DNA of 64,000 nt from the NCBI GenBank assembly GCA_947499555.1, contig CANMOU010000002.1:1-64000 (forward strand), given 5' to 3'. The notes under the pieces were generated by a model that was not told the DNA's origin, did no database searches, and saw only the letters and a program-made list of their open reading frames with translations. Below are positions 22,864-37,407 of the stretch, piece by piece. The stretch's first letter is position 1; each line of letters starts with the position of its first letter. The DNA is from an uncultured Roseovarius sp. GTDB taxonomy: Bacteria > Pseudomonadota > Alphaproteobacteria > Rhodobacterales > Rhodobacteraceae. Both the position numbers and the translations under genes were made by a program.

Positions 22864-23185
22864 TAATCTACGGCCCATTCCTGCCGTTCGTCAGCCGATC
22901 AGGATGCCGTGGTGCAGCCCGTCGAACCAGCCATTCGCTGCGACTTCAAAATCTCAAAACAAGCGAACTCGCACTCAGCGGGACAAAGCTGCCGTTGGCT
23001 TTGATGATTTGAATGACGGGTTTCTTAGAGCAGCTGACCGGTGAAAATTGAAAGTCATTCGTTCACGCCCCAAAGTGATTGGAGCAGAATATTCAGCAGA
23101 CTTCTACGCGCATCTATGTTTTGAGGAAGCAACTAGTCGGACATGTGTATCGGAGAGATGCATGTGACAGCGTGGAGGAGTTAGT
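22864..23185. other. Intergenic region, no gene seen
   Basis: A 322-bp gap. It contains GGGACAAAGCTG near 22980, similar to the GCGGACAAAG motif of other gaps. The last 20 bases hold the GGAGGAG ribosome site of the next gene. Confidence 0.4.
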
Positions 23186-24430
23186 TTGAGTGAAGTTGAC
23201 GTAATCATAGTCGGGGCAGGCGCAGCGGGTATTGGAGCGGCCTTGGAGTGCCAAGCGCAGGGCGTTTCGTGCCTGGTATTAGAGGCTGGCAGCCGCATTG
23301 GCGGCCGCGCCTACACGGCCAAAGCCGGATTAGCACAACCTTGGGATCTAGGATGCCACTGGATGCATTCTGCGTCTGAAAATGCGCTTGTTGCCTTCGC
23401 TGACCAATTTGGCGCGCACTATTCCAAAAGCTCCGGATGGGAAAACTCAATACTCTGGTCAGATGGCGGGATGGTTGGTGATGCGGATATTGCCGCGTCT
23501 GAAAACGCCGTGAGTGCTGCCTTTGACGCCGTATACAATGCTGGTCAAACTGGCATAGATGTGGCAATCGCGGAGGTGTTGCCAGAACCGTCGCGATGGG
23601 ATCGTTGCGCGCGGCATGTATTGCAACTTGAGGTCGGCGACGACCCCGAACTCGCCAGCACTGCCGCCTATTCCGACTACAGCGATACAGAGGAAGATTG
23701 GCCCGTTCTCAGCGGCTATGGTGCGCTGATTGAACGTGTGGCAGAGGGCCTGGACACCCGTTTGGATACGCTGGTCAGACATCTGGCCGAAACCGCTACT
23801 GGCATTTGTGTGACTACTCCAACCAGAGAGTTTTCTGCCAAAGCGGCGATTGTCACCGCATCAACCAACGTTCTGGCGTCCGGCGCAATTCAGTTCGCAC
23901 CTGGGCCAGCGGCAGATTTTGCTTCCAAGGCTTCACATATTCCGTGTGGAGCATTTGAGAAGGTGGCTTTCACCTTATCACGCCTACCGGAAAAACTTGG
24001 TGGAGCGCGGCATGTTATTGTGAACTCTCCAGACAATGCACCCGCGATTGATTTCAAGGTGAAGACAGGTGCAACACCGATGATCATTTCAACAATTGCA
24101 GGCGGTGCTGCCCGCGCATTGATGAAGCTGACCGAAGACGAGCGCATTGCCTTCGTCCAAGCCCGTCTGAGCTTGGCGCTCGGGCCTGAAGTTGATGGTC
24201 TGATCACGGGAGCGGCTTGCACGAATTGGCTGAATGACCCGCTCTTTCGCGGCTCCTATTCGCATGCAAAGCCAGGTTTTGGGCAGATGCGCCGTGATAT
24301 GATCCAGCAAGACACCGGGCGTATCGGCTTTGCGGGCGAGGCGTTCTCTCTCCATCATCAGGCGACCGCTCATGGCGCTTACACGAGTGGCCGAAACATC
24401 GCCAAGCGACTGACGGAGAGATACAGCTAG
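23186..24430 (+). CDS. FAD-dependent amine-oxidase-like protein
   Basis: A 414-residue flavoprotein with an N-terminal dinucleotide-binding motif (VIIVGAGAAGIGAALECQAQ, about 5-24) and the GG-doublet region ASRIGGRAYT typical of flavin monoamine oxidases. The C-terminal FAD segment is GRIGFAGEAFSLHHQATAHG (about 375-394). The only suitable start is a TTG at 23186, seven bases after GGAGGAG; a stop lies just upstream in frame. It would oxidise an amine using FAD, producing H2O2 or passing electrons on. The substrate is unknown. It stands alone, with an IS immediately downstream. Confidence 0.8.
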   Translation: MSEVDVIIVGAGAAGIGAALECQAQGVSCLVLEAGSRIGGRAYTAKAGLAQPWDLGCHWMHSASENALVAFADQFGAHYSKSSGWENSILWSDGGMVGDADIAASENAVSAAFDAVYNAGQTGIDVAIAEVLPEPSRWDRCARHVLQLEVGDDPELASTAAYSDYSDTEEDWPVLSGYGALIERVAEGLDTRLDTLVRHLAETATGICVTTPTREFSAKAAIVTASTNVLASGAIQFAPGPAADFASKASHIPCGAFEKVAFTLSRLPEKLGGARHVIVNSPDNAPAIDFKVKTGATPMIISTIAGGAARALMKLTEDERIAFVQARLSLALGPEVDGLITGAACTNWLNDPLFRGSYSHAKPGFGQMRRDMIQQDTGRIGFAGEAFSLHHQATAHGAYTSGRNIAKRLTERYS

Positions 24431-24841: not shown

Positions 24842-25900
24842 TCAGACGCCGATAGCGACCTCATCTTGCTGCGCATCAAACGCCGTTTTGTGCCTCAGTA
24901 TGCTCCAAGCCATGCGCGCGAGCTTGTTCGCCAGGGCGACGGCAGCCTTGTTGCGATGCATGCGTTCGGAAGCGCGTGCCAGCCAATCGCCAAAGCTGAA
25001 GTCGGGCCAACGATGCGGTCGCATCATGATGATCTTCGCCGCCTGAACGAACAGCATCCTCAGATACCTGCTGCCGCGTTTAGTGATGCGGCCAAGGACC
25101 GTTCGTCCTCCTGTGCTGTACTGTCGGGGAACTAATCCTACCCAAGCCGCGAAGTCGCGTCCGCGATCAAACGCCTCTCCTTCACCGACGGCAGCGACCA
25201 TCGCCGTCGAGATCATCGGGCCGATACCGGGCACCGTCATGACGTTGACGCAGTTCTCTTCGGTCCGGCTGATCTCTTCGATCTCGGCGGACACCTTGTC
25301 GATCCGGTCGTCCATCCACATCCAGTCACCGTAAAGGCCGATCAGGATCGACCGCATGCGCGGCGATATCTCGTCCTTGCGCTCTTCCAGGATCGCTTCG
25401 AATGAGTTCTTCAGAGCCCGCAGGCCTTTTCTGACCGTGATACCCTGTTCGATCAGAAAGGCACGGATCTGATTGATCGTCGCCGTCCGGCGCGAAACCA
25501 AACGCGACCTGACACGGTGAAGTACCTGCAGGTCCAGCTGATCCTGGCTCTTCTCGGACACGGTCTGCAAGTTGGGACGAAGCGCGGCTTCAGCGATAGC
25601 CTCTGCGTCGTTGTAATCGTTCTTCTGCCCCTTATTGAAAGGCTTCACATAGATCGCAGGGATGATCCGGGGCTCAAATCCCATCTCGCGCAGTGTTCGG
25701 CTGACAAAGTGTGCGCTCAAACACGCCTCCAGGCCAACGATACAGCGCGGCAGCTTTTCAAACGTCGCCGCCAACGCCAGTCGCTTGATCTGTTTGCGCA
25801 GGACCCGCTGCCCCGTCGGATCGAAGCCCACGATGTGGAATGTGTCTTTGCCAATATCGATGCCAATCGACATCAGCTCATCAAAGTCGTTCTTCGCCAT
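24842..25900 (-). CDS. IS110/IS1111 family transposase
   Basis: A 352-residue transposase with the RuvC-like DEDD N-terminal domain: GIDIGKDTFHIVG (about 12-24), the Glu in VGLEACLSAHF, and DYNDAEAIAEA (about 100-110). The C-terminal transposase_20 domain, containing TVPGIGPMISTAMVAAVGEG and the catalytic-Ser region, follows at about 220-320. All expected acidic residues are present, so it may be active. The ATG at 25900 follows GGAGAAG; the ten residues upstream in frame lack a site. Confidence 0.9.
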   Translation of the reverse strand: MAKNDFDELMSIGIDIGKDTFHIVGFDPTGQRVLRKQIKRLALAATFEKLPRCIVGLEACLSAHFVSRTLREMGFEPRIIPAIYVKPFNKGQKNDYNDAEAIAEAALRPNLQTVSEKSQDQLDLQVLHRVRSRLVSRRTATINQIRAFLIEQGITVRKGLRALKNSFEAILEERKDEISPRMRSILIGLYGDWMWMDDRIDKVSAEIEEISRTEENCVNVMTVPGIGPMISTAMVAAVGEGEAFDRGRDFAAWVGLVPRQYSTGGRTVLGRITKRGSRYLRMLFVQAAKIIMMRPHRWPDFSFGDWLARASERMHRNKAAVALANKLARMAWSILRHKTAFDAQQDEVAIGV

Positions 25901-25949
25901 GCTACTTCTCCAGTTTGCAGAAATAGGCAAAGCCTAACCTGCTGGGTGA

Positions 25950-25963: not shown

Positions 25964-26318
25964 CCCATTAGCGGACCTTGAACTCGGCCATCAAATGCTG
26001 CGGTGGCAGCCCGCATTCCAGACATTCGCTGCAGTTGCGCCGTTCTCGGTTATCCAAGGGTCGATAGAGTGGACCATACCGATGCATGGGCCGTTGCCAA
26101 TTGAGATCGAAACCCATAGTAGAACTGCCGCTCCCTTTTAAGGGATGTCGTTCTGCGGAGTTTCGCACTTTCAGCCGGTCGGTTTTCAGTGAAGGTTCTT
26201 TGCTGCTAACAAATGCAATTTTCTCAGATTTGAAACCTGTTTGATTGTATCCATATTCTTCAACGTAGCTCTTCGACGATCGCTAAAGCCAAAAGTGTTT
26301 ATCGTGCATATTGCAAAA
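25964..26318. other. Intergenic region beside the IS, no gene seen
   Basis: About 355 bp without a supported gene. Its first ~75 bp, read in reverse, resemble part of the dispersed repeat family (GCAGCATTTG then GAGTTCAAGGTCCGC), weakly. The rest is AT-rich promoter DNA for the flavoprotein operon. Confidence 0.4.
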
Positions 26319-26346
26319 AGTGAATATTCATCGTTAAATATTCACT
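26319..26346. promoter_or_regulatory. 28-bp palindromic operator, copy 1
   Basis: AGTGAATATT and AATATTCACT flank an 8-nt spacer (10-bp perfect arms), 33 bp upstream of the flavoprotein start at 26379. A 28-bp palindrome with the same AGTGAA...TTCACT ends lies at 32581-32608. Position and symmetry point to a repressor or activator dimer site, probably for the XRE-cupin regulator at 35715. Confidence 0.7.
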
Positions 26347-26378
26347 CACCAAGCGACCCATTCAAAGCGAAATAGAGC

Positions 26379-28826
26379 ATGTCAATTCCCGCTAAAACAG
26401 ACGTTGTCATCGTTGGTGGCGGTGTTGCAGGGTGTTCGATTGCCTATCACCTTAGCAAGATTGGTATCACGGATGTGGTGCTTTGCGAACGCAAACAACT
26501 GACTTGTGGCACCACATGGCACGCGGCCGGATTAGTGACGCAACTACGCGCCACGCGGAACATGACGGAGCTGGCGAAGTATACTGGCGAGCTGTTTTCC
26601 TCGCTTGAGGCGGAGACCGGCCAGGCCACAGGGTTCAAACAAAACGGCGCGTTGCGTCTCGCCAAGACCGAACCACGTTTCGAAGAGCTGAAGCGCGGTG
26701 TCTCGATGGCGCGTAACTTTGGACTGACCGCGGATGTCATAAACCCCGGCGAGGTGAACGAGCGCTGGCCCGGCGTTGAAACCGGCGATCTGGCGGGTGC
26801 GATCTGGATGCCGAAAGACGGGCAGGTCAATCCGTCGGATGTCACCATGGCCATGGCCAAAGGTGCGCGGATGAAGGGCGTTCAAATACTTGAAAACACG
26901 CCCGTGCATCGCATCCTGACCGAAAACGGCAAGGCAATGGGTGTCGCTGTTGAAGGTGGTGACATCCGAGCGAAGAAGGTCGTGATCGCCGGCGGCATGT
27001 GGTCGCGCGAATTGGCCGCCCAGATTGGTGTTTCCCTGCCTCTGCACGCTGCCGAGCATTTCTACATCGTGACCGAGCCGATCCCGGGTCTTCAACGTGA
27101 CCTGCCGGTGCTTTTTGTGGGTGATGAAAGCACCTACTACAAGGAAGACGCAGGCAAATTGCTGGTTGGGTGTTTTGAACCAGAAGCCAAACCCTGGGGC
27201 ATGAACGGCATCCCCGAAGATTTCTGTTTTGATGCCCTGCCCGAGGATATCGAGCACTTCGAGCCGATCCTGGAACAAGCCATCAAACGTGTCCCAATGC
27301 TGGCGGATGCAGGCATTCAACTCTTCTTCAACGGGCCGGAAAGCTTCACGCCCGATGACCGGTATCTGCTGGGCGAAACGCCGGAAATCCAGGGGCTGTT
27401 CTGCGCCTGCGGGTTCAATTCCGTTGGCATCCTGTCCTCGGGTGGCGTGGGCAAGGCGCTGGCGGACTGGATCCGCGATGGTCACCCACCGGTCGAACTG
27501 GCGGATGTAGACGTGCGGCGCATGCAACCGTTCCAATCCAATCGCCACTACCTGCATGACCGCACGAAGGAGACTTTGGGCCTGCTCTTCAAAATGCACT
27601 GGCCCAACCTGCAATACGAAACCGCCCGCGACGTGCGCCGCAGCCCGTTTCATGACCGATTGCTGCAAGCGGGCGCTTCAATGACCGAGGCAGCGGGGTT
27701 CGAACGCCCTGGGTTCTTCGCACACGACGGACGATCCACCGACATCACCTATTCCTACGGGCTTCAAAGCTGGTTTGATGACACTCGGCGTGAATGTCTG
27801 AACACAGCCAAGTACGTCACGCTTTTTGACCAAAGCTGCTTTGCCAAGTTTCGCCTGGAAGGACGTGATGCGGCGGCGGTTTTGAACCGCATTTGCGCGG
27901 CGGATATCGACGTACCGGTGGGTCGCATCGTCTACACTCAATGGCTCAACCCACGGGGCGGCATCGAAGCTGATGTCACGGTCACACGAGTGTCCGAGAC
28001 CAGCTTCATGATCGTGACCGTCGCGGCCAGCCAGACGCGCGACTTTTCCTGGCTCACGCGGCACATCCCCGACGAGGCCCATGCGTTTGCCAGCGACATC
28101 ACTTCAGGTCTGCCGATGCTGGCACTGATGGGTCCAAACTCGCGTGCCCTGCTTCAGGCACTGTCGGGTGAAGACCTGTCAAACGCTGCACTGCCCTTCG
28201 GGCACAGCCGTGAGGTTTGCCTGGGCTATGCTCAGGTCCGCGCCAGCCGTCTGACCTTTGTGGGCGAGTTGGGATACGAACTCTATATCCCTGCCGAGTT
28301 CGCGCCGCATGTCTTTGATCGGATCGTCGAACGCGGGTCAGAGTTTGGCCTGGCTCATGGTGGGTTCTTTGGCATCAATTCCATGCGTATGGAAAAGGGC
28401 TATCGCCATTGGGGGCACGACATTGGCGAAGAAGATACGCCACTGCACGCAGGGCTGGGCTTTGCCGTCGGGTGGGACAAACCGGATTTCATCGGGCGCG
28501 ACGTGGTCTTGCGCCAGCGGGACAAGGGCACGCCCACCAGACGGCTGATTCAAGTTCGGCTGGAGGGGCGCGAGAACGCGCCGATGCTCTATCACGAGGA
28601 ACTCATACTGCATGACGGCCGGATCATCGGATCCGTAACCTCGGGCGCTTTCGGACATCGCGTCGAGGCATCTCTGGGCCTTGGATATGTCAGTTGCCCG
28701 GACGGTGTGACCGCGGATTTTCTCAGCTCGGGCGATTTCGAAGTTGAAGTGGCCTGTGTCCGGTACAAGGCACAGCTTCAGCTGGGCGCATTTTACGACC
28801 CAAAGAACACGACGATCAGAGTTTGA
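26379..28826 (+). CDS. Dimethylglycine/sarcosine dehydrogenase-type flavoprotein
   Basis: An 815-residue two-part enzyme. The N-terminal half is an FAD oxidoreductase ([17 protein letters not shown] at about 9-25) containing [11 protein letters not shown], whose His is the covalent FAD attachment residue in dimethylglycine dehydrogenase. The C-terminal half is a GcvT-like folate-binding domain (about 430-815, with [20 protein letters not shown] near 667-686). Such proteins oxidise N-methyl groups and pass the C1 unit to tetrahydrofolate. It is first in an operon with the aldehyde dehydrogenase, 20 bp away, and is preceded by the palindrome at 26319. The true substrate may be another secondary or tertiary amine. 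Confidence 0.9.
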
Positions 28827-28846
28827 CAGACAAAGGGAGAAGACAA

Positions 28847-30358
28847 ATGGGAGATGTATTTAGTCACCTCAAACGTGTCAGCGGTGGCATCTACCGGGCG
28901 GGCGGCATCGCCCCCAGTGGGGCCAGTGACGGGCGGGACGTGATTGACCCGGCCACAGAACAGGTCATTGGCAGCCTGGCCGAAACACCGCAGGCTGAAA
29001 TTGATGCCTGCATCGAAGAGGCCAATGCGGTTCAGAAACACTGGTGGAAAGATCTTTCCGCCGTGGATCGCGCCCATGCCCTGCACGAGGTTGCCACCGA
29101 GATCGAGCGTATGCGCCCGCTTTTGGCGGAGTCGCTGACACGTGAAATGGGCAAGCCCTACAAGGAATCCGTCGACGAGGTGAACTGGTGCGTGCACTCC
29201 CTGCGCTACTCTGCCGAGGTGGGGCGCTCGGACATGGGCCGCGTGATGGGTCCCGCGGTGGCCGGGCAGATGCATTACACGCTCAAACAGCCTTTGGGCA
29301 CGATCGCAATGATCATGCCCTTCAACTATCCGATGGTCCTTTTGGCGTGGGAGGCTGGCGCGGCCTTGGCGGCAGGCAATGCCTGTGTCATCAAGCCATC
29401 TGAATACACCACGCTGACGACGCTGCTGTTTGCCGAGGCCTTTGCGCATCTGCCCAAAGGGCTTTTCCAGATCGTGACAGGCGGCGGTGATGTAGGGCGT
29501 CGGCTGATCGAACATGACGGCACACATGGCGTGGCCTTCACGGGCAGCGTGCCGGTCGGGCGGCAGGTCTCGAAGACCTGCGGCGATCTGATGAAACCGG
29601 CACTAATCGAAACCTCGGGCAATGATCCGTTCCTGATCATGCCATCCGCTCCGCTGGACATCGCCGCGCGCGCCGCGGCCTTTTCGGCCTACATGAATTG
29701 CGGCCAGATCTGTGTCTCGGCTGAACGGTTCTACGTGCATGAAGAAATCCACGATGCGTTTGTCGAGAAACTGGTTGAGGAAACCGCCAAGCTGCGCATC
29801 GGCAACGGCATGGACAAGGTCGATATGGGCCCGCTTGTGTCCTCTAAAGAGCGGGACCGGTACGAGGCGCTGATGACCAACGCACAGAATGAGGGCGCGC
29901 GCGCTGCTATCGGCGGAGGCCGTCCAGCCGAGTTCAACCGCGGCTGGTTCGTGGACGCCACCGTACTGGTCGATTGCACACCGGACATGAGCCTTTTCCA
30001 CAATGAAAGCTTCGGCCCGGTTGCCCCAATCTGCAAGGTCAGCAGCTTTGACGAAGCGATCGCACATGCCAACAACAGCAAATATGGGCTGGGCGCGAAT
30101 ATCTACACCAAGGATCTGGGCGAAAGTATCCGGGCGACCGAGGAAATCCAGGCCGGCATGGTCTGGGTCAACGCGCCGCTTCTGGACAATGATGCCGGGC
30201 CGTTTGGTGGCTCAAAAATGAGCGGGCTGGGCCGTCAGTTGGGCCACGAAGGTTTCGAAACCTTCCGCGAAACCAAGATGATCATGATCGACCCTGACTG
30301 TGCCCCGCAGGATTTCTGGTGGTTCCCCTATGCGGACGAGGAAATGGCACCGCAGTGA
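28847..30358 (+). CDS. Aldehyde dehydrogenase family protein
   Basis: A 503-residue aldehyde dehydrogenase. The catalytic Cys is in NCGQICVSAER (about 287-297). The usual ELGGK segment reads ETSGNDPFLIM here, keeping the Glu but changing the rest, as in some succinate-semialdehyde-like subgroups. The ATG at 28847 follows AGGGAGAAG. It follows the flavoprotein closely and likely oxidises an aldehyde formed in the same pathway. Confidence 0.85.
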   Translation: MGDVFSHLKRVSGGIYRAGGIAPSGASDGRDVIDPATEQVIGSLAETPQAEIDACIEEANAVQKHWWKDLSAVDRAHALHEVATEIERMRPLLAESLTREMGKPYKESVDEVNWCVHSLRYSAEVGRSDMGRVMGPAVAGQMHYTLKQPLGTIAMIMPFNYPMVLLAWEAGAALAAGNACVIKPSEYTTLTTLLFAEAFAHLPKGLFQIVTGGGDVGRRLIEHDGTHGVAFTGSVPVGRQVSKTCGDLMKPALIETSGNDPFLIMPSAPLDIAARAAAFSAYMNCGQICVSAERFYVHEEIHDAFVEKLVEETAKLRIGNGMDKVDMGPLVSSKERDRYEALMTNAQNEGARAAIGGGRPAEFNRGWFVDATVLVDCTPDMSLFHNESFGPVAPICKVSSFDEAIAHANNSKYGLGANIYTKDLGESIRATEEIQAGMVWVNAPLLDNDAGPFGGSKMSGLGRQLGHEGFETFRETKMIMIDPDCAPQDFWWFPYADEEMAPQ

Positions 30359-30385
30359 CCATTTGAACTGGGCAGACCATCACTT

Positions 30386-32551
30386 TCACGTAACGGTTTG
30401 CCCGCCTGCTGAACTTGCTAATCCCGTTGCGGGAATGATCCGTGCGTCCAGCGCGAAGGCACCTTCGGGCAGAACCAGAACAGGGTTCAGTTCTACAGCA
30501 TCGATGTGGTTGCGCATCTCACATGCGGCCGCTGCGACCGCGACGGCTATGGCCGCAGCGGCATCAACATCCAGAGGCGGCCGTCCGCGAGCGCCATTTA
30601 GAATTGCCGCGCCTTTGAGGGACTGGATCAGCTCAAGAGCTTGCTGGTGTGTTACCGGCGCCAGCGCTGTCGCGGATTGCGCCAGGATTTCGGTATAGAC
30701 GCCCCCAAGGGCAATGGTGATCAAAGGCCCCAGATGGCCGTCGATCCGGGCCCCGATCAGAAGTTCGACCCCGTCATCAAGCGGCAACTGGCGTTCCAGC
30801 GTGATTTTGGACTTGGGAAAGCGGTGTCTCAGATCAAGGAACGCAACTTTGACCTCATTCTCATTCGCAAGCCCAAGTTTGACGCCTCCTTCGTCTGATT
30901 TGTGCAGCAGATCAGCCGCCTTCATGACAAGTGGAAAGCCAAGGCGAGTTCCGGTTTCCGTGACCCCGGACTCTGTCGCAACAAGAGCACCTTCGGGGAA
31001 GCACACGCCACGGTCGAAGAAATAGTTCCGCGTGGACCAGTAATCCGTTGGAACTGGGTTATCCAAGATTGCATTCGGTAGGGCAGGTATGGTTTGGGGC
31101 ACCGGCCGAGTGAGGACGTGATGTAGCGCATGCACCGCACTGTCGAGGTCACGTTGCACCGGTATACCGCGATCCCTAAGCGTGTCCCCCGTTGCAAAGT
31201 CGGGATAAAGCGTATGCAGGATTAGTGGTTTGCCCGTGTCCTGCGCCACATCTGCCATAGCTTTCGCGGCCTCAGCTTCTGCTCGCGCAACATCGTCATC
31301 CTGCGCGGAATACCCGCCGAAGTAAGCCGAAACCAGCACGGCATCCAATTCGTCGGACCGCAACATCTCGGCAACCACACGGGCGTAAACTGCTGTCTCG
31401 TAGTCGGCCTCACCGGCAAGATCGACCGGGTTCGAGGTGCCGACACGCGGCCCGGACACGTCTTTGAGCCGCGTCTGCAATGCGTCCGACAGGACAGGCA
31501 TGTCGAGACCCGAGAACGATACCTGCTCGGAAGAGAGCGAGCCCAGACCGCCACCGTCGGTCACGATACCGACGCGCGATCTGGACGGGGCCCCACCCAG
31601 TTTGGACAACGCGTCGGCAACGGCAATCGCTTCGCGGGTTGAATTCACACGCAGAATTCCCGCGGCTTTACACGCCGCATCAACCGCATCCATGGGTGTG
31701 ACTAGGGCGCCGGTATGCGACAAAGCACTGCGCGCGGCAGCTTCGCTCGCGCCGACCGTTAGAAGGATCACAGGTATACCACTGGCGCGCACCTTAGCAG
31801 CGGCGGACAAAAAACACCGGCCATCCCGCATGTCTTCGCAATAGACGATCAGCGCCTTGGTCGCTGAGTGGCCATCAAAGCTGCGAACAGCGTCGGCCAA
31901 ACCGATATCCGCCTGGTTGCCCAGGTTCAGGGCGCGTGAAAACCCTGTCTTCTGAGCGGCGGCATAGCGGCTTAGGTCATGGGTGACCAAACCGCTTTGT
32001 GACACAACGCCGATCGGACCCTCGGGGTAGACAATACGTGTGGCATAAAGTTCAGCGGCACTGTCCTGAAAGCCAACGATATTGGGCCCCAGCAAAACCG
32101 CCCCCGCGCCGCGGACGGCCTTAGCCATCCTTTCCTCGGCTGCCTTGCCCTCGGCGCTGATCTCACCGAAACCCGCCGTCATGACGCAAAAGGCCTTTGC
32201 GCCAAGGCGCAAACCCTCCATGACCGCAGTTTCTGCTGCCTCTGGCGCAACGACAATCAGGAGGCATTCCGGCACTTCCGAAATATCAGCAAGCGATTTA
32301 ACGGTGTCTACGCCGTCTATCGTGCCTCCCCGAGGGTTCACCAGATACACCCGCCTTCGTCCCGCACCGCGCAATAGATGGCGCGCAATGTGGTTTCCCC
32401 ATTTATGCGGCGCTGTCGAAGCTCCGATCAGCGCGATGGACCGTGGATCGAACAGGCCACACAAATTTCGTTCCGCTTTTTTGCAATTGATGTCGTCTGA
32501 TGGAACGTCTTTGACCATGTCTGTCATGCAAAAGAGTTTTCGGTGGGGCAC
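30386..32551 (-). CDS. Acyl-CoA synthetase, NDP-forming type
   Basis: A 721-residue fusion of the alpha and beta subunit domains of NDP-forming acyl-CoA synthetases. A CoA-binding domain (IALIGASTAPHKWGNHIAR, about 35-53) and ligase-CoA domains carry the phospho-His loop SALSHTGALVT (about 275). A C-terminal ATP-grasp follows from about 500 (GFPLVMKAADLLHKSDEGGV). It would activate a carboxylic acid with CoA. The listed start is GTG; ATGs at 32527 and 32518 are alternatives, and none has a convincing ribosome site. It is divergent from the Rieske gene with the 32581 palindrome between them. Confidence 0.85.
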   Translation of the reverse strand: MPHRKLFCMTDMVKDVPSDDINCKKAERNLCGLFDPRSIALIGASTAPHKWGNHIARHLLRGAGRRRVYLVNPRGGTIDGVDTVKSLADISEVPECLLIVVAPEAAETAVMEGLRLGAKAFCVMTAGFGEISAEGKAAEERMAKAVRGAGAVLLGPNIVGFQDSAAELYATRIVYPEGPIGVVSQSGLVTHDLSRYAAAQKTGFSRALNLGNQADIGLADAVRSFDGHSATKALIVYCEDMRDGRCFLSAAAKVRASGIPVILLTVGASEAAARSALSHTGALVTPMDAVDAACKAAGILRVNSTREAIAVADALSKLGGAPSRSRVGIVTDGGGLGSLSSEQVSFSGLDMPVLSDALQTRLKDVSGPRVGTSNPVDLAGEADYETAVYARVVAEMLRSDELDAVLVSAYFGGYSAQDDDVARAEAEAAKAMADVAQDTGKPLILHTLYPDFATGDTLRDRGIPVQRDLDSAVHALHHVLTRPVPQTIPALPNAILDNPVPTDYWSTRNYFFDRGVCFPEGALVATESGVTETGTRLGFPLVMKAADLLHKSDEGGVKLGLANENEVKVAFLDLRHRFPKSKITLERQLPLDDGVELLIGARIDGHLGPLITIALGGVYTEILAQSATALAPVTHQQALELIQSLKGAAILNGARGRPPLDVDAAAAIAVAVAAAACEMRNHIDAVELNPVLVLPEGAFALDARIIPATGLASSAGGQTVT

Positions 32552-32580
32552 AAGAGGTAAAGCGCATACAATCAGTCAAA

Positions 32581-32608
32581 AGTGAAAATTTCAATTGAAA
32601 AATTCACT
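32581..32608. promoter_or_regulatory. 28-bp palindromic operator, copy 2
   Basis: AGTGAA and TTCACT ends with a central perfect TTTCAATTGAAA. Only two positions per arm break symmetry. It lies between the divergent acyl-CoA synthetase and Rieske oxygenase genes. Its length and ends match the site at 26319-26346, so one protein probably controls all three transcripts. Confidence 0.7.
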
Positions 32609-32660: not shown

Positions 32661-33797
32661 ATGGCTCCTCACTCTTCGATGCCAGCTTCTGCACCGGGCA
32701 GCGCCGATCTGGGAATTGACGTTGCTGCGATTTCTGATGGGTTGTCTCACAGCATCGGTTTTCCCGTTCGGCACTATCACGATCCGGGTATCTATGCGCT
32801 TGAGCTTGCACGCATTTTCGAAGGGCGCTGGCAGTATTTTTGCCCGGTGGCGATGGTGGCCAAACCCGGCGATGTCATGACAGGCATGATCGGCAACACG
32901 CCTGTGGTCGTCACGCGAGACAAGGATGGGCAAGTGCACGGACTGGTCAACGTCTGCCGACATCGCGGTTTCCGGGTCGTCGGCGATGCCGAAAGGAATT
33001 GCACCCGACTCTATTGTCGCTATCACGCTTGGACCTACCGGCTTGATGGGTCACTTGCCCGCGCGCCGGACCTGGAGAGCGACACCGAGTTCGACAAATC
33101 CGAGCACGGTCTGCGGCGGATCGCGGTGGGAATCTGGGGCCCGGCGGTGTTCGTCAATTCCGACGATAGTGCCGAACCGCTGCATACGGCCATGCCCGAG
33201 CTACAGGAGTTTTCCGACAGGCTTGGCGTTGACGAAGATCCAGAAAATTACATCCTGCATGACACGCACATCTCGGAGCAAAAAGCGAACTGGAAACTTT
33301 GGACCGACAACAGCGTTGAATGCTATCACTGCGGCTCGATCCACGGGGAAAGTTTCAACCAGGCTTTCGTGGTGGAAACCGAAGGAGGCGTGCAGTCACC
33401 GGTCCTGCACAAGGGCGCAATCATGTCGAGCGTGTTTGAACCCCAGAAGCCAAAAGGGGATGGGTTGCGAACAAGTTTCTACCGATCCCTGCACCTCTTT
33501 CCCGGCGCCCATATCGTCCAGCACGACGACATCATGCTGATGGGTCGTATGGTGCCCACTGGCCCCGAAAGTTGCACCTATACCGGGCACTATATGCGCC
33601 ACAAGGACACGCCAGAAGACCGTGCATCGGAGTGGGTGGAGCTGTACAACAAGACCTTCGCCGAAGATGCAGAAGTGGTCGAGTTGCAGCAGATAAATCT
33701 CAGAAGCCCGAACGCCATGCCTTTCCGGTATAATCCGGGACGCGAGGAAACATCGATCCTGACAAACAAGCTAATCGTTCAGGCCCTTGCAGATTGA
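32661..33797 (+). CDS. Rieske non-heme iron oxygenase alpha subunit
   Basis: A 378-residue oxygenase with Rieske ligands CRHRGF and CRYHAW (about 91-115). The mononuclear-iron region is NWKLWTDNSVECYHCGSIH (about 210-228). It is related to, but clearly different from, the oxygenase at 18026. It probably demethylates or hydroxylates a quaternary amine or a small acid. No reductase gene is nearby. The ATG at 32661 is preferred, since the frame begins with TTG at 32595 inside the palindrome. It leads an operon with the acyl-CoA dehydrogenase and hydratase genes. Confidence 0.85.
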   Translation: MAPHSSMPASAPGSADLGIDVAAISDGLSHSIGFPVRHYHDPGIYALELARIFEGRWQYFCPVAMVAKPGDVMTGMIGNTPVVVTRDKDGQVHGLVNVCRHRGFRVVGDAERNCTRLYCRYHAWTYRLDGSLARAPDLESDTEFDKSEHGLRRIAVGIWGPAVFVNSDDSAEPLHTAMPELQEFSDRLGVDEDPENYILHDTHISEQKANWKLWTDNSVECYHCGSIHGESFNQAFVVETEGGVQSPVLHKGAIMSSVFEPQKPKGDGLRTSFYRSLHLFPGAHIVQHDDIMLMGRMVPTGPESCTYTGHYMRHKDTPEDRASEWVELYNKTFAEDAEVVELQQINLRSPNAMPFRYNPGREETSILTNKLIVQALAD

Positions 33798-33815: not shown

Positions 33816-34991
33816 ATGGATTTCACTTTACCCGACGACGTGCGAATGCTGCACGATCTGGTGCGCCGCTTCGTGCGTGATGAACTGGTGCCACTGGAAC
33901 CTGACGTCATTGCCCGCGAAGCGGCCGGGCAATCCAGCTATCTGACCGCGGACGAACAAAGCCGCGTAGATGCCCGGGCGCGCGAGTTGGGCCTTTTCGG
34001 ATTGGACGCGCCCGAAGACATTGGCGGATCAGACTTGCCGCTCTCGGCTCTTGTAGGTGTGAATGAAGAACTGGGCAGCACGCCTGTTTTCTATCTCCTG
34101 CCGCCTGACACGCCCAATCTGACGGTGCTGTTGCAGGATGGAACGGACAAGCAAAAGGACAAATACTTGCCCGGTCTGATGTCCGGGGCGCTGAAAACAG
34201 CCATTGCCGTCTCCGAGCCGGGCGCTGGAGGTGACCCTTCCGGCATGAATACCAAGGCCGAGAAAGTCGATGGCGGCTGGCGACTGACCGGGCGCAAGAT
34301 CTGGATATCGAACGCAAGCGGCGCGGACTTCATGATTGCTTTCGCGGTCACAGGCCGGTCTGACGCAGGACGCCCCGAGGTGACGGCGTTTTTCGTGGAC
34401 AAGGACACGACGGGGCTGTCGGTCGAACGACGCATACCGATGTTGGCCGGCTGGTCCACCTACGAAGTCGCGTTTGATGACTGTTTCATTGCCGATGACA
34501 TGGTTTTGGGACAAGTCGGCCAAGGCTGGGTGCCAATGCAGAAACGCCTTGATGCGCGGCGTCTGCAAGTGGCGGCGTGGAGCATCGGGGCCGCGCGTCG
34601 GGCGCTGGAGATGATGCTGGACTACGCCCCTCAACGGGTGACATTCGGTCAGCCTCTTTCCGACCGTCAGGTGGTGCAGGTCTGGATTGCCGAGGCGCAG
34701 ACAGCGATCCATGCCAGCCGATTGATGTGTCAGCATGCGGCGTGGAAACTGGACAATGGCACCAATGCCAGCACAGAGGTATCCATGGTCAAGGCCTACG
34801 CCTCGGAAATGGCGCAAACAATCATCGACCGGGCGATGCAGCTACACGGCGGCATGGGTGTCTCGAAAGAAACACCCCTCTACCTGCTGGCGGAAAATGT
34901 ACGATTGGCCCGCGTCTATGAAGGGCCGACCGAAGTGCTTCGATGGCGCGTGGCGCGCGATATCCTGAAGGGCAAATTTACGATCAACTGA
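33816..34991 (+). CDS. Acyl-CoA dehydrogenase
   Basis: A 391-residue FAD-dependent acyl-CoA dehydrogenase. Family marks are AIAVSEPGAGGDPSGMNTKA (about 130-149) and WRLTGRKIWISNA. The C-terminal domain has YAPQRVTFGQPLSDRQ and, near the end, QLHGGMGVSKETPLYL and YEGPTEVLRWRVARDI. The catalytic Glu is presumably the one in YEGPTEV. It introduces a double bond into a CoA thioester. It lies 18 bp after the Rieske gene, so co-transcription is likely. Confidence 0.9.
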   Translation: MDFTLPDDVRMLHDLVRRFVRDELVPLEPDVIAREAAGQSSYLTADEQSRVDARARELGLFGLDAPEDIGGSDLPLSALVGVNEELGSTPVFYLLPPDTPNLTVLLQDGTDKQKDKYLPGLMSGALKTAIAVSEPGAGGDPSGMNTKAEKVDGGWRLTGRKIWISNASGADFMIAFAVTGRSDAGRPEVTAFFVDKDTTGLSVERRIPMLAGWSTYEVAFDDCFIADDMVLGQVGQGWVPMQKRLDARRLQVAAWSIGAARRALEMMLDYAPQRVTFGQPLSDRQVVQVWIAEAQTAIHASRLMCQHAAWKLDNGTNASTEVSMVKAYASEMAQTIIDRAMQLHGGMGVSKETPLYLLAENVRLARVYEGPTEVLRWRVARDILKGKFTIN

Positions 34992-35007: not shown

Positions 35008-35721
35008 ATGGTAGAACTGGCGAATGGCGACCTGCTTTTCGAAGTCTCGGACGGCGTGGCGCGGTTGAGGTTGAACCGGCCGTCCAAGGCCAATTCGATC
35101 ACGTTTGCCATGTTGAAAGGCATCATTGAAAGTTGCCAAAACCTCGCCCAACAGAAAGACGTCAATGCGCTGGTGCTTGAAGCAGAGGGCCAAAATTTCT
35201 CCGGCGGGGTGGATCTGGCGGTGATGGACGTCGACAAAAACTCCAAATCAGAGTACGAGCGTTATCTGGCAATGTGGGACCTGATGATCGACGCGCTGCA
35301 GTCGCATCCGGTGCCGGTCATCGCGGCCATTCAGGGGCCCGCGATTGCAGGGGGCCTTTCCATCGCGTTTGCCTGTCATATCCGCGTGGCATCGACTGAC
35401 GCCCGGTTTGGTTATCCGCGCATTCCGCAGGGCCATCTTCCGGGGAGGCACAACCTGTCCAACCTGGTGAAGTTGATTGGACCGGGGCGCACGCGGCTGA
35501 TCCTGGAAGGTGCGATGGTGCTTTCAGCTGCCCGCGCATATGATTGGGGGCTTGTGGACCTGCTGACCACGCCGGAGAGCCTGGAACGCGAAATCGTCGA
35601 AATGACGCACAAAATGGTCGGAACGCCGCGCCCGGTGCTGGAGATGACTCACAAGTTAATTTCTGATCCGGAAAATGACGCGCTGTGGAATGCCGCAGAC
35701 CAGAAGACGAAAACTCAGTAG
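35008..35721 (+). CDS. Enoyl-CoA hydratase/isomerase family protein
   Basis: A 237-residue crotonase-fold protein. The oxyanion-hole segments are EGQNFSGGVDLAVMD (about 62-76) and GPAIAGGLSIAFACHIRVAS (about 110-129). The catalytic Glu region reads PRIPQGHLPGRHN, where hydratases usually have Glu, so it may be an isomerase, hydrolase or altered-activity member. It is third in the Rieske operon and its 3' end overlaps the convergent regulator by 7 bp. Confidence 0.8.
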   Translation: MVELANGDLLFEVSDGVARLRLNRPSKANSITFAMLKGIIESCQNLAQQKDVNALVLEAEGQNFSGGVDLAVMDVDKNSKSEYERYLAMWDLMIDALQSHPVPVIAAIQGPAIAGGLSIAFACHIRVASTDARFGYPRIPQGHLPGRHNLSNLVKLIGPGRTRLILEGAMVLSAARAYDWGLVDLLTTPESLEREIVEMTHKMVGTPRPVLEMTHKLISDPENDALWNAADQKTKTQ

Positions 35722-36374
35722 CTGGGCGGTGTGATCGCCCAGATCACAACCGCCTCGCCCTCGCCGGTATTGGCGTACCTGTGTGGCCGATCGCTGGAAA
35801 AAGCAAAACTATCCCCAACGCTCAGAACGATCTCTTCGTCTTCCAGCCACAGCGTCATTTGCCCCGCGAGGACAAATCCAGCCTCCTCGCCGATATGGCT
35901 GTAGGGCTCGGACCCGCTGGCTGACCCAGGTGGGAAGACACAGCGCAGAAGCTCGATCTGCCGGTCGAGATTGGGGGACAGCAATTCGTCGGTGATGCCG
36001 TTTTCAAAACTCAAGGACCGCCGTCTTTCAGCGCGCACGATCGTATCGCGAAGATGCCCTTCCGCTTCGCCTGTGGGGTCGCTGAAGAACCAACTGATCG
36101 TCACACCCAACGCTCGACTGATCGAGTGCAACGCCTTGACCGACGGGCTGGAAATGCCTCGTTCGATCTGGCTCAGATAGCCCTGAGACAGCCCTGTCTT
36201 CTCGCTGAATTCCGCCAGCGTCGTGTTTCTGGCGCGTCTAAGCCCACGTATTTCCGCACCAACTCGAGACTCGATCCTGGTCAGGTCTTCTGCAGCAACC
36301 TTCTTTGTGTCCGGTTCGCGTGCGGACAGGTTCGAAGGACGCAGCATACGCGGCAGTGACGCATTTTTGGCCAT
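35715..36374 (-). CDS. XRE-family regulator with cupin domain
   Basis: A 219-residue regulator of the PuuR type: HTH at about 35-62 (LAEFSEKTGLSQGYLSQIER), then GISSPSVKALHSISRALGV, and a C-terminal cupin at about 145-215 (HIGEEAGFVLAGQMTLWLED then GDSFAFSSDRPHRYANTG). The ATG at 36374 follows AGAGGA. Such regulators sense small metabolites in the cupin pocket. It lies at the end of the catabolic island, facing its hydratase gene, and is the best candidate to bind the palindromes at 26319 and 32581. Confidence 0.85.
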   Translation of the reverse strand: MAKNASLPRMLRPSNLSAREPDTKKVAAEDLTRIESRVGAEIRGLRRARNTTLAEFSEKTGLSQGYLSQIERGISSPSVKALHSISRALGVTISWFFSDPTGEAEGHLRDTIVRAERRRSLSFENGITDELLSPNLDRQIELLRCVFPPGSASGSEPYSHIGEEAGFVLAGQMTLWLEDEEIVLSVGDSFAFSSDRPHRYANTGEGEAVVIWAITPPSY

Positions 36375-36774
36375 CAATATCCTCTTGTAGCGGAGCCCGT
36401 GAGAGCATTTCTTCGAATATTGGACCTTCAGCCCGATACCTGCCAGCATATTCGCGCCTCTCATGGCCAGCAAGTGAGCAAGGTTTTTGGAAAATTCTCG
36501 CGATATCTAACTTCTGAGTTGAGAAACGAGGTTGTCGACCAAATGAATTCCATCGCATGGAATTCGCGATACTGCGACTTTCGCGAACCAAAGTAAACTT
36601 TAGCAACACACTCCGGAAACAATGGCGCTGCAAACAGAAATACACAACCTACGCAAAATTAGCCACTTTGGGCTCACAACGGGTTTTTGCCGTGAGTTTT
36701 CAGAGCCATGGTATCCTTCATTGTCAACATTGTGTTGTCGTTGTGGGAGGGCGTGGCGGATCGGAGGATCCGTC
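36375..36774. other. Intergenic region with a palindrome, no gene seen
   Basis: A 400-bp gap between the XRE-cupin regulator (minus) and the integrase (plus). It holds the palindrome at 36545-36565 and the integrase ribosome site GGAGGA near 36762. No RNA gene is evident. Confidence 0.45.
36545..36565. promoter_or_regulatory. 21-bp palindrome upstream of the XRE-cupin regulator
   Basis: GAATTCCAT-CGC-ATGGAATTC, 9-bp perfect arms with a 3-nt centre, 171 bp upstream of the regulator start. It shares only the outer GAAT/ATTC with the 28-bp sites. It may be an operator for another protein or an autoregulatory site. Confidence 0.4.
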
Positions 36775-37407
36775 ATGGAGATTGCAAACTTACCCGCCAT
36801 TCGCGCACTCAGGCCCGCCTGGAACAAGGGCCGCATCGTTGGCCAGAAACGCCCACTGAAGCCGAAACATGTTTGGGCCATCCGCGTTCGCCTTGAACTG
36901 GCGGAAAACCATCGGGACCTGGCCTTGTTCAACCTGGCCATCGACAGCAAGTTGCGAGGCTGCGATCTGGTCAAAATGAAGGTTGTGGACGTCATGGCAA
37001 CCGGACAGATCAAGGAGCGAGCATCCGTCCTGCAGAGCAAAACCAATAAGCCCGTTCGGTTTGAGATCATGGAAGGCACACGGGTTTCGCTCGAACGCTG
37101 GATGGAAGACCCGCTGATGATCGGGTCCGAGTATCTCTGGCCCTGGCGATTTCACGAGCGCCTTCACATCTCGACACGACAATATGCCCGGATTGTCAGA
37201 GATTGGGTGACGTCCATTGGCCTTGAAGCAACAGCATTTGGCACACACTCGATGCGCCGCACGAAGGTCACCCAGATCTACAAGAAAACGGGCAATCTGA
37301 GAGCGGTTCAACTTCTACTCGGTCACACCAAGATGGACAGCACTGTCCAGTATTTAGGCGTCGAACCGGAAGATGCACTAGCCATCGCCGAAGCCATCGA
37401 AATCTAA
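36775..37407 (+). CDS. Short tyrosine recombinase/integrase
   Basis: A 210-residue tyrosine recombinase consisting mainly of the catalytic domain. Catalytic residues are the Arg in SKLRGCDLVKM (about 61), HSMRRTK (about 161-167), the His in LLGHTKMDST (about 187) and the Tyr in QYLGVE (about 196). It lacks the usual N-terminal core-binding domain. The ATG at 36775 has GGAGGA upstream. Such compact integrases are common in Rhodobacteraceae. A degraded partial copy lies at 8887-9114. No attachment sites or cargo boundaries are visible. Confidence 0.85.
   Translation: MEIANLPAIRALRPAWNKGRIVGQKRPLKPKHVWAIRVRLELAENHRDLALFNLAIDSKLRGCDLVKMKVVDVMATGQIKERASVLQSKTNKPVRFEIMEGTRVSLERWMEDPLMIGSEYLWPWRFHERLHISTRQYARIVRDWVTSIGLEATAFGTHSMRRTKVTQIYKKTGNLRAVQLLLGHTKMDSTVQYLGVEPEDALAIAEAIEI

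Follow-up and report, generated by a model that had tools for sequence, protein, structure and literature searches.

Two 28-bp palindromes in the genome of an uncultured Roseovarius species are very probably the operators of one XRE-cupin regulator, encoded at 35715-36374, and would tie three transcripts into a single local regulon for demethylation and carbon-chain oxidation. Positions throughout are those of the window, the whole 64,000-nucleotide stretch of DNA that was analysed. Because the motif occurs with orthologs of the regulator and is absent from eight of eight paralogs and from four of four DMGDH-like genes that lack the regulator, control of all three transcripts by one regulator is favored with good confidence. 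The predicted sites and the genes of the island are as follows.

23040..23067, no strand: possible weak third site, intergenic, upstream of the flavin amine oxidase gene
23186..24430, + strand: flavin amine oxidase, a possible further target
26319..26346, no strand: predicted operator 1, AGTGAATATTCATCGTTAAATATTCACT, of the form AGTGAATATT-N8-AATATTCACT, ending 32 bases before the start codon of the DMGDH-like gene
26379..28826, + strand: DMGDH/Mabo-like flavoprotein, 815 aa (DAO, FAO_M, GCV_T and GCV_T_C), the presumed core target
28823..30358, + strand: aldehyde dehydrogenase, overlapping the end of the DMGDH-like gene in the same operon
30386..32518, - strand: ADP-forming acyl-CoA ligase (CoA_binding_2, Succ_CoA_lig and ATP-grasp_5)
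32581..32608, no strand: predicted operator 2, AGTGAAAATTTCAATTGAAAAATTCACT, of the form AGTGAAAATT-N8-AAAATTCACT, between two divergent starts
32661..33797, + strand: Rieske oxygenase
33816..34991, + strand: acyl-CoA dehydrogenase
35008..35721, + strand: enoyl-CoA hydratase/isomerase family protein
35715..36374, - strand: XRE-cupin regulator, 219 aa (HTH_3 and Cupin_2), tail-to-tail with the hydratase gene

Both palindromes, with their shared AGTGAA and TTCACT ends, were confirmed where an earlier note on this DNA had placed them, and the gene order that it described also holds: the flavoprotein and aldehyde dehydrogenase genes follow site 1, divergent operons flank site 2, and the XRE-cupin gene stands at the end of the island. 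The protein encoded at 26379-28826 has the four domains of the DMGDH/Mabo type (DAO, FAO_M, GCV_T and GCV_T_C) together with a TWHAAG motif, which we take to be FAD-linking; dimethylglycine dehydrogenase 4pab has a segment that aligns with it. The open frame of the CoA ligase extends to 32551, and translation could start at 32518, 32527 or 32551. Operator 2 is therefore separated from the candidate CoA-ligase starts by 29, 53 or 62 bases, and from the Rieske ATG by 52 bases. The CoA ligase scores 251 and 247 bits against hydroxyacid CoA ligases and, less strongly, 202 bits against a solved DMSP lyase (7cm9).

Alignments of about 200 residues link the Rieske protein to its best solved relatives, among them 3vca (named a ring-hydroxylating dioxygenase), 4qup (named a monooxygenase/demethylase) and carnitine monooxygenase. 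Against the glycine betaine monooxygenase GbcA model (NF058607) the score is 150.3 bits, compared with a cut-off of 670. Two more Rieske genes, 39% and 24% identical to that of the window, lie elsewhere in the same genome (L040 7044-10476, G000:C5), adjoined by an XRE-like gene (30%). An IS110-family transposase gene (24842-25930, - strand) is located between the amine oxidase gene and the DMGDH operon. Just past the regulator, the open frame at 36622-37407 (+ strand) is presumably tyrosine-recombinase-like, as judged by eye from its translation, and suggests the edge of the island.

A scan of the genome for the pattern, which the earlier note had proposed, revealed that the exact form is rare. 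AGTGAA-N16-TTCACT occurs only twice in the whole 3.73-Mb genome, at 26319-26346 and 32581-32608, and these two copies are 6.3 kb apart. Looser versions are as common as expected by chance, with 17 matches of up to three mismatches in the window versus 18.3 expected, and 52 matches of up to two mismatches in the genome versus 58 for a reversed control. The claim is therefore based on the exact form and on comparison. A stricter form derived from the window, AGTGAAWWTT-N8-AAWWTTCACT, has two copies in this genome and none in 294 other family genomes, a count that measures rarity; the regulator is absent from most of those 294 genomes.

When the motif was relaxed, three matches with one mismatch were found in this genome. 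That at 23040-23067 retains GTGAA...TTCAC intact, its mismatches affecting both outermost bases and one inner base, and it was kept as a weak candidate. Relatives of the adjacent flavin amine oxidase (23186-24430) were absent at E <= 1e-5 from the ortholog loci searched. The other two matches (C2:65009 and C6:55730) lie inside long open frames and were dropped as further targets. Upstream of site 1, at 26230-26259, a promoter scan returned two promoter-like matches that overlap each other, where shuffles averaged 0.7; around site 2 it returned none, and no sigma-70-like promoter in that scan overlaps either palindrome.

The regulator carries an N-terminal XRE helix-turn-helix (HTH_3, 56.4 bits against a cut-off of 23) and a C-terminal cupin domain (Cupin_2, 66.4 bits against 27.2). 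Its best NCBIfam match is PuuR (NF007408), but the score of 70.5 bits is below the cut-off of 211 and the protein is therefore not filed as PuuR. In the window, palindromes are found within about 10 kb of the regulator gene, at the predicted targets rather than at the regulator promoter. The predicted regulon is small and local, comprising the two exact sites of the genome, both in the island, and one weak intergenic candidate in the window. In its own genome the regulator matches only itself at E <= 1e-40. Orthologs that are 55-68% identical were identified in 11 other genomes and on two plasmids: 7 of 84 other genus genomes (64-67%), 4 of 393 other family genomes (57-65%, with at most seven candidates per genome scored), and the two plasmids pP24_b and pSMR1-6 (64 and 68%). 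Seven more of the 84 genus genomes have only an XRE-cupin paralog (44-51%).

Outside the window there are thus 13 ortholog loci (G602, G558, G559, G591, G613, G813, G140, G755, G594, G598, G845 and the two plasmids). Absence of the palindromes from orthologous islands was the outcome that the earlier note had named as refuting its proposal. At 12 of these 13 loci, a site with zero or one mismatch and a spacing of 16 is present beside the regulator, likely targets or both. In G602, G558, G559, G591, G613 and G813 it occupies the region between the regulator and the DMGDH-like gene, which in all six is followed by an aldehyde dehydrogenase ortholog (72-83%). In G140 the site is between the regulator and divergent genes, the DMGDH-like gene being second in line, and in G594 it is between the regulator and a DMGDH-like gene in tandem order. 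G598 and both plasmids have the motif at the regulator and again in front of a hyuA operon. The site in G755 is exact (L060 10356-10383) and separates the regulator ortholog from a divergent gene for a CrtO/phytoene-desaturase-like flavoprotein; the 15 kb fetched contains no DMGDH-like gene. The only locus with no site is that of G845, whose regulator is a 55-59% ortholog and where a DMGDH-like gene (66%) is also present. Some loci are near copies of one another, namely G558, G559 and G591, and likewise G598 and the two plasmids. When near copies are counted once, nine groups remain, eight of which have a site. A second exact site in G594 (L061 879-906, G594:C382) precedes the gene for an ABC permease of the oligopeptide type, and in relatives the regulon may therefore extend to transport genes.

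Paralogs provide one control. Regulator starts were scanned over 600 bases upstream and 60 inside the gene (418 in all for G598), with mononucleotide shuffles for comparison. A site with at most one mismatch was present in 9 of 12 orthologs, including that of the window, versus none of eight paralogs (43-49% identical). The three misses are the window and G594, which have their sites at target genes instead, and G845. Upstream of the regulator in the window, the best site has three mismatches, which 15 of 100 shuffles also reached, and autoregulation there is not supported. Among spacings of 10-23, only 16 fits across orthologs; G813 alone also has a one-mismatch match at a spacing of 22. The earlier proposal that the XRE-cupin regulator binds both palindromes therefore receives strong comparative support, in that the motif tracks regulator orthologs and not paralogs.

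The same association is evident across the genus. With the exact pattern taken from the window alone, the scan gave eight sites, distributed over 7 of the other 84 genus genomes. Five of them are at the regulator locus, in four of the seven regulator-bearing genomes, and the other three are single sites in 3 of 77 remaining genomes (Fisher p = 5.8e-4, uncorrected for relatedness of the genomes). Each of the other three regulator-bearing genomes has a one-mismatch site at the regulator locus. The relaxed pattern matched 9 of 85 genus genomes, which are seven of the eight with the regulator, including that of the window and excluding G613, plus G583 and G609, where the matches are inside open frames; because this pattern was built after the sites of relatives had been seen, the result is partly circular. 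The DMGDH-like gene at E <= 1e-290 is found in all seven regulator-bearing genomes versus 1 of 77 others (p = 1.8e-9, again uncorrected for relatedness).

Four DMGDH-like genes without a regulator ortholog were examined, and none has the motif. In G608, the single genus genome that has the gene but not the regulator, there is no site with fewer than three mismatches in 5.4 kb around the gene, and on plasmids of Shinella, Mesorhizobium and Sphingobium there is none with fewer than four mismatches in the 700 bases upstream. One match with two mismatches does occur in the Sphingobium stretch, about 9 kb from the DMGDH-like gene.

An alignment of fifteen sites, with near copies left out and both strands read, gave the consensus AGTGAA-[TCA]-W-T-T-N8-A-A-W-[AGT]-TTCACT. 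TGAA and TTCA are invariant, and 29 of 30 half-sites retain the neighboring G or C. Between them lies an AT-rich middle, which in many sites is not palindromic. Each window palindrome forms 12 of 14 complementary pairs, and 7 of the 15 sites form just 6-7. Invariant ends and an AT-rich middle that is often not palindromic favor two half-sites whose centers are 22 bp apart, and count against an RNA hairpin. A subdivision of each window palindrome into tandem sub-operators (two TGAA-N2/3-TTCA-like repeats) was rejected, as positions 11-18 are unconserved (0.23-0.47 bit in the 15 sites).

The protein segment [IL]S[SN]PS, just after the putative recognition helix, is present in all 12 aligned orthologs, including that of the window, and in none of eight paralogs. 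The helix itself reads S[QK]GYLSQIER in 8 of the 12 orthologs and SVSFISKIER in five of the eight paralogs. G755, which has a site, carries SVGYLSQVER, close to the SVGYLSQLER of two site-less paralogs. The helix discriminates poorly between orthologs and paralogs and was set aside as proof of specificity.

Several other origins of the palindromes were weighed against these data. They might be bound by another regulator encoded elsewhere, with the XRE-cupin gene a mere neighbor. The resemblance of the recognition helix to that of two site-less paralogs is compatible with this, as is the location of the regulator gene in the window, about 9 kb from site 1 and with no clear site of its own. However, in different genera and on plasmids alike the motif accompanies the regulator ortholog, even in G755 where the divergent gene is not DMGDH-like, and DMGDH-like genes lacking the regulator lack the motif as well, which renders a different regulator quite improbable. 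Less probable still is a role as RNA hairpins, whether attenuators or terminators, in place of protein-binding DNA. An inverted repeat of 28 bases shortly before a start codon could form a stem, and both window sites have 12 of 14 pairs. Nonetheless, full conservation is confined to the TGAA and TTCA ends, almost half of the aligned sites pair poorly, the scan showed no terminator-like site near either palindrome, and site 2 would need to serve two opposite directions. Chance similarity between the ends of two unrelated inverted repeats could be argued from the lack of enrichment of loose matches in the window or genome, yet two exact sites occur 6.3 kb apart here when 77 regulator-less genus genomes contain only three, and sites recur at the corresponding place in other genomes; the comparative data refute this explanation.

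A further alternative concerns what site 2 controls and is compatible with the binding part of the preferred explanation. Site 1 would be inherited and site 2 bound too, but the divergent genes at site 2 would belong to a different pathway captured by the regulator. The DMGDH-like gene and the regulator form the conserved core, and searches with the Rieske, CoA-ligase and acyl-CoA dehydrogenase proteins did not find the complete set (DMGDH-like and aldehyde dehydrogenase genes, CoA ligase, and the Rieske-acyl-CoA dehydrogenase-hydratase genes) together elsewhere. With the Rieske protein, the only match in 149 family genomes at E <= 1e-80 was its own. At 1e-60, two of 385 class genomes matched, its own (which also has a 39% paralog on C5) and G182 (40%). 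Four of 85 genus genomes matched, its own plus G558, G559 and G591 at about 38-39%, and relatives in two Acidimicrobiaceae MAG loci of the genome_contigs collection are 36-37% identical. Not more than about 8 kb from its Rieske gene, G182 encodes an aldehyde dehydrogenase, an acyl-CoA dehydrogenase and a hydratase related to those of the window (33%, 28% and 33%, respectively), and the 20 kb fetched contains no regulator, DMGDH-like gene or motif. In G591 the Rieske relative sits on a different contig.

The CoA ligase has only its own match at E <= 1e-120 in 85 genus genomes, with none in the 84 others; relatives on six plasmids are 33-40% identical, and on a Rhodococcus plasmid such a relative is followed by a 29% acyl-CoA dehydrogenase. 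Relatives of the acyl-CoA dehydrogenase occur in 27 plasmid records, three of which were inspected. An annotated hydratase adjoins the relative on a Chelativorans plasmid, and the Rieske-CoA-ligase set is absent from all three (by annotation for two, by tblastn for L071). In these searches no close orthologs turned up for site 2 or its genes, so site 2 is supported just by its sequence match to the motif. Against capture of a separate pathway, neighbors are also swapped around the core where the chemistry fits one pathway, as on the hydantoinase-type plasmids. Moreover, about 7 kb from the motif, G558 and G559 carry a relative of the Rieske gene (38%) along with a ProXWV-like ABC transporter. 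It would also make chemical sense for a Rieske N-demethylase to supply a DMGDH-like one. We regard capture as unlikely on balance, with appreciable weight remaining, and that the three transcripts serve a single pathway is plausible.

The gene context of the motif on plasmids suggests what that pathway might act upon. By annotation, pP24_b and pSMR1-6 have the motif before genes for hyuA, hyuB, an ABC transporter, a DMGDH-like protein and an MFS transporter, and on the other side in the gap that separates the regulator from an ETF-folD-purU-gabT operon; in pSMR1-6 a succinate-semialdehyde dehydrogenase gene follows that operon. A transposase gene stands between the regulator and hyuA in pP24_b, and this plasmid, like the window, carries an IS110 gene (38%), about 5 kb past its DMGDH-like gene. 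From these annotations we infer opening of a lactam ring to 4-methylaminobutyrate, demethylation with folate and ETF, and then breakdown of GABA; this suggests that an amino acid, for example 4-methylaminobutyrate, is N-demethylated. The island of the window has neither the hyuA-hyuB and gabT genes carried by both plasmids nor folD, purU or ETF genes, and has the CoA-ligase and Rieske genes instead. Its enzymes are predicted to demethylate a nitrogen compound, which its gene content indicates is probably an N-methylated amino acid. Gamma-butyrobetaine is our guess for what the Rieske/CoA set feeds in.

In the preferred explanation, a dimer of the regulator would occupy the AGTGAA and TTCACT half-sites, which are separated by about two helical turns, near the start codons. 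When inducer is lacking, it would most likely shut off the DMGDH-like and aldehyde dehydrogenase genes from site 1 and, from site 2, the divergent CoA-ligase and Rieske-acyl-CoA dehydrogenase-hydratase operons together. Once the cupin domain bound a compound of the pathway, which is probably an N-methylated amino acid, the regulator would let go, and the genes that remove methyl groups and oxidize the leftover carbon chain would be expressed jointly. Comparison supports the link between regulator and motif, the two sites and the local regulon. Dimerization, repression and release by a ligand are expected from the protein family, the kind of substrate is predicted from gene content, and the inducer and the sign of regulation are likewise predictions.

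Relatives retain the regulator-site pair while the attached pathway genes vary. Tentatively, and with a little less than an even chance of being correct, these loci may represent a portable demethylation regulon, in which the regulator and operator are locked to a DMGDH-like demethylase and the feeding module is swapped. The modules would be a hydantoinase-type set with an ABC transporter, an NCS1-like transporter, an oligopeptide-type ABC transporter, or, in the window, the CoA ligase with the Rieske-acyl-CoA dehydrogenase-hydratase genes. The window version would then represent a so far undescribed pathway for a quaternary or tertiary N-methyl amino acid (e.g., gamma-butyrobetaine) in marine Rhodobacteraceae. 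The 28-bp motif is readable across genomes, where it marks likely targets of the regulator and points to genes for N-methyl amino acid breakdown, including those on mobilizable plasmids. A compound that releases the regulator from both sites would also be a cheap route to the substrate of the Rieske/CoA gene set.

Within the part of the literature covered, no published description of such a regulon was recognized. N-methylpyrrolidone-type clusters combine hydantoinase AB, a flavoprotein and a semialdehyde dehydrogenase. Such clusters are suggested by pP24_b and pSMR1-6, which share the regulator, the motif and the DMGDH-like core with the window. In the nicotine degradation module of Arthrobacter nicotinovorans pAO1, Mabo, Mao and Sad act on N-methylaminobutyrate and its product (PMC6122326). 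This module has the three enzyme types of the island: a sarcosine-dehydrogenase-like demethylase with bound FAD, plus an amine oxidase and an aldehyde dehydrogenase. The organism is different, the likeness is by enzyme type alone, and the island amine oxidase is weakly tied to the regulon.

Characterized Pseudomonas XRE-cupin proteins inhibit neighboring metabolic genes via palindromes, and most have one or two targets (PMC7901475). PsdR, PauR, ErfA and others resemble the window regulator in their HTH and cupin domains and in having intergenic palindromes near the regulator gene, and they likewise have few metabolic targets and are exchanged together with them as a group (PMC7901475). Their motif is different, and in the window the regulator gene is not adjacent to site 1 and its promoter lacks a convincing site. 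PuuR, the putrescine repressor of E. coli, also shares the HTH and cupin domains but differs in its targets (function given in PMC7901475). DbuR of Pseudomonas putida, an XRE-cupin repressor, protects a 44-bp stretch with a 20-bp palindrome (PMC12724383). As proposed here, it represses a divergent catabolic operon from a palindrome by the promoter, but its palindrome is AATTCTCATATATTAGAATT and the operon is for a D-amino-acid oxidase (PMC12724383). The predicted window operator is 28 bp with a 16-bp spacer, whereas sites of the family are given as 15-25 bp (PMC12724383). The regulator would thus work like a known class, the local XRE-cupin repressors, with an operator longer than this range.
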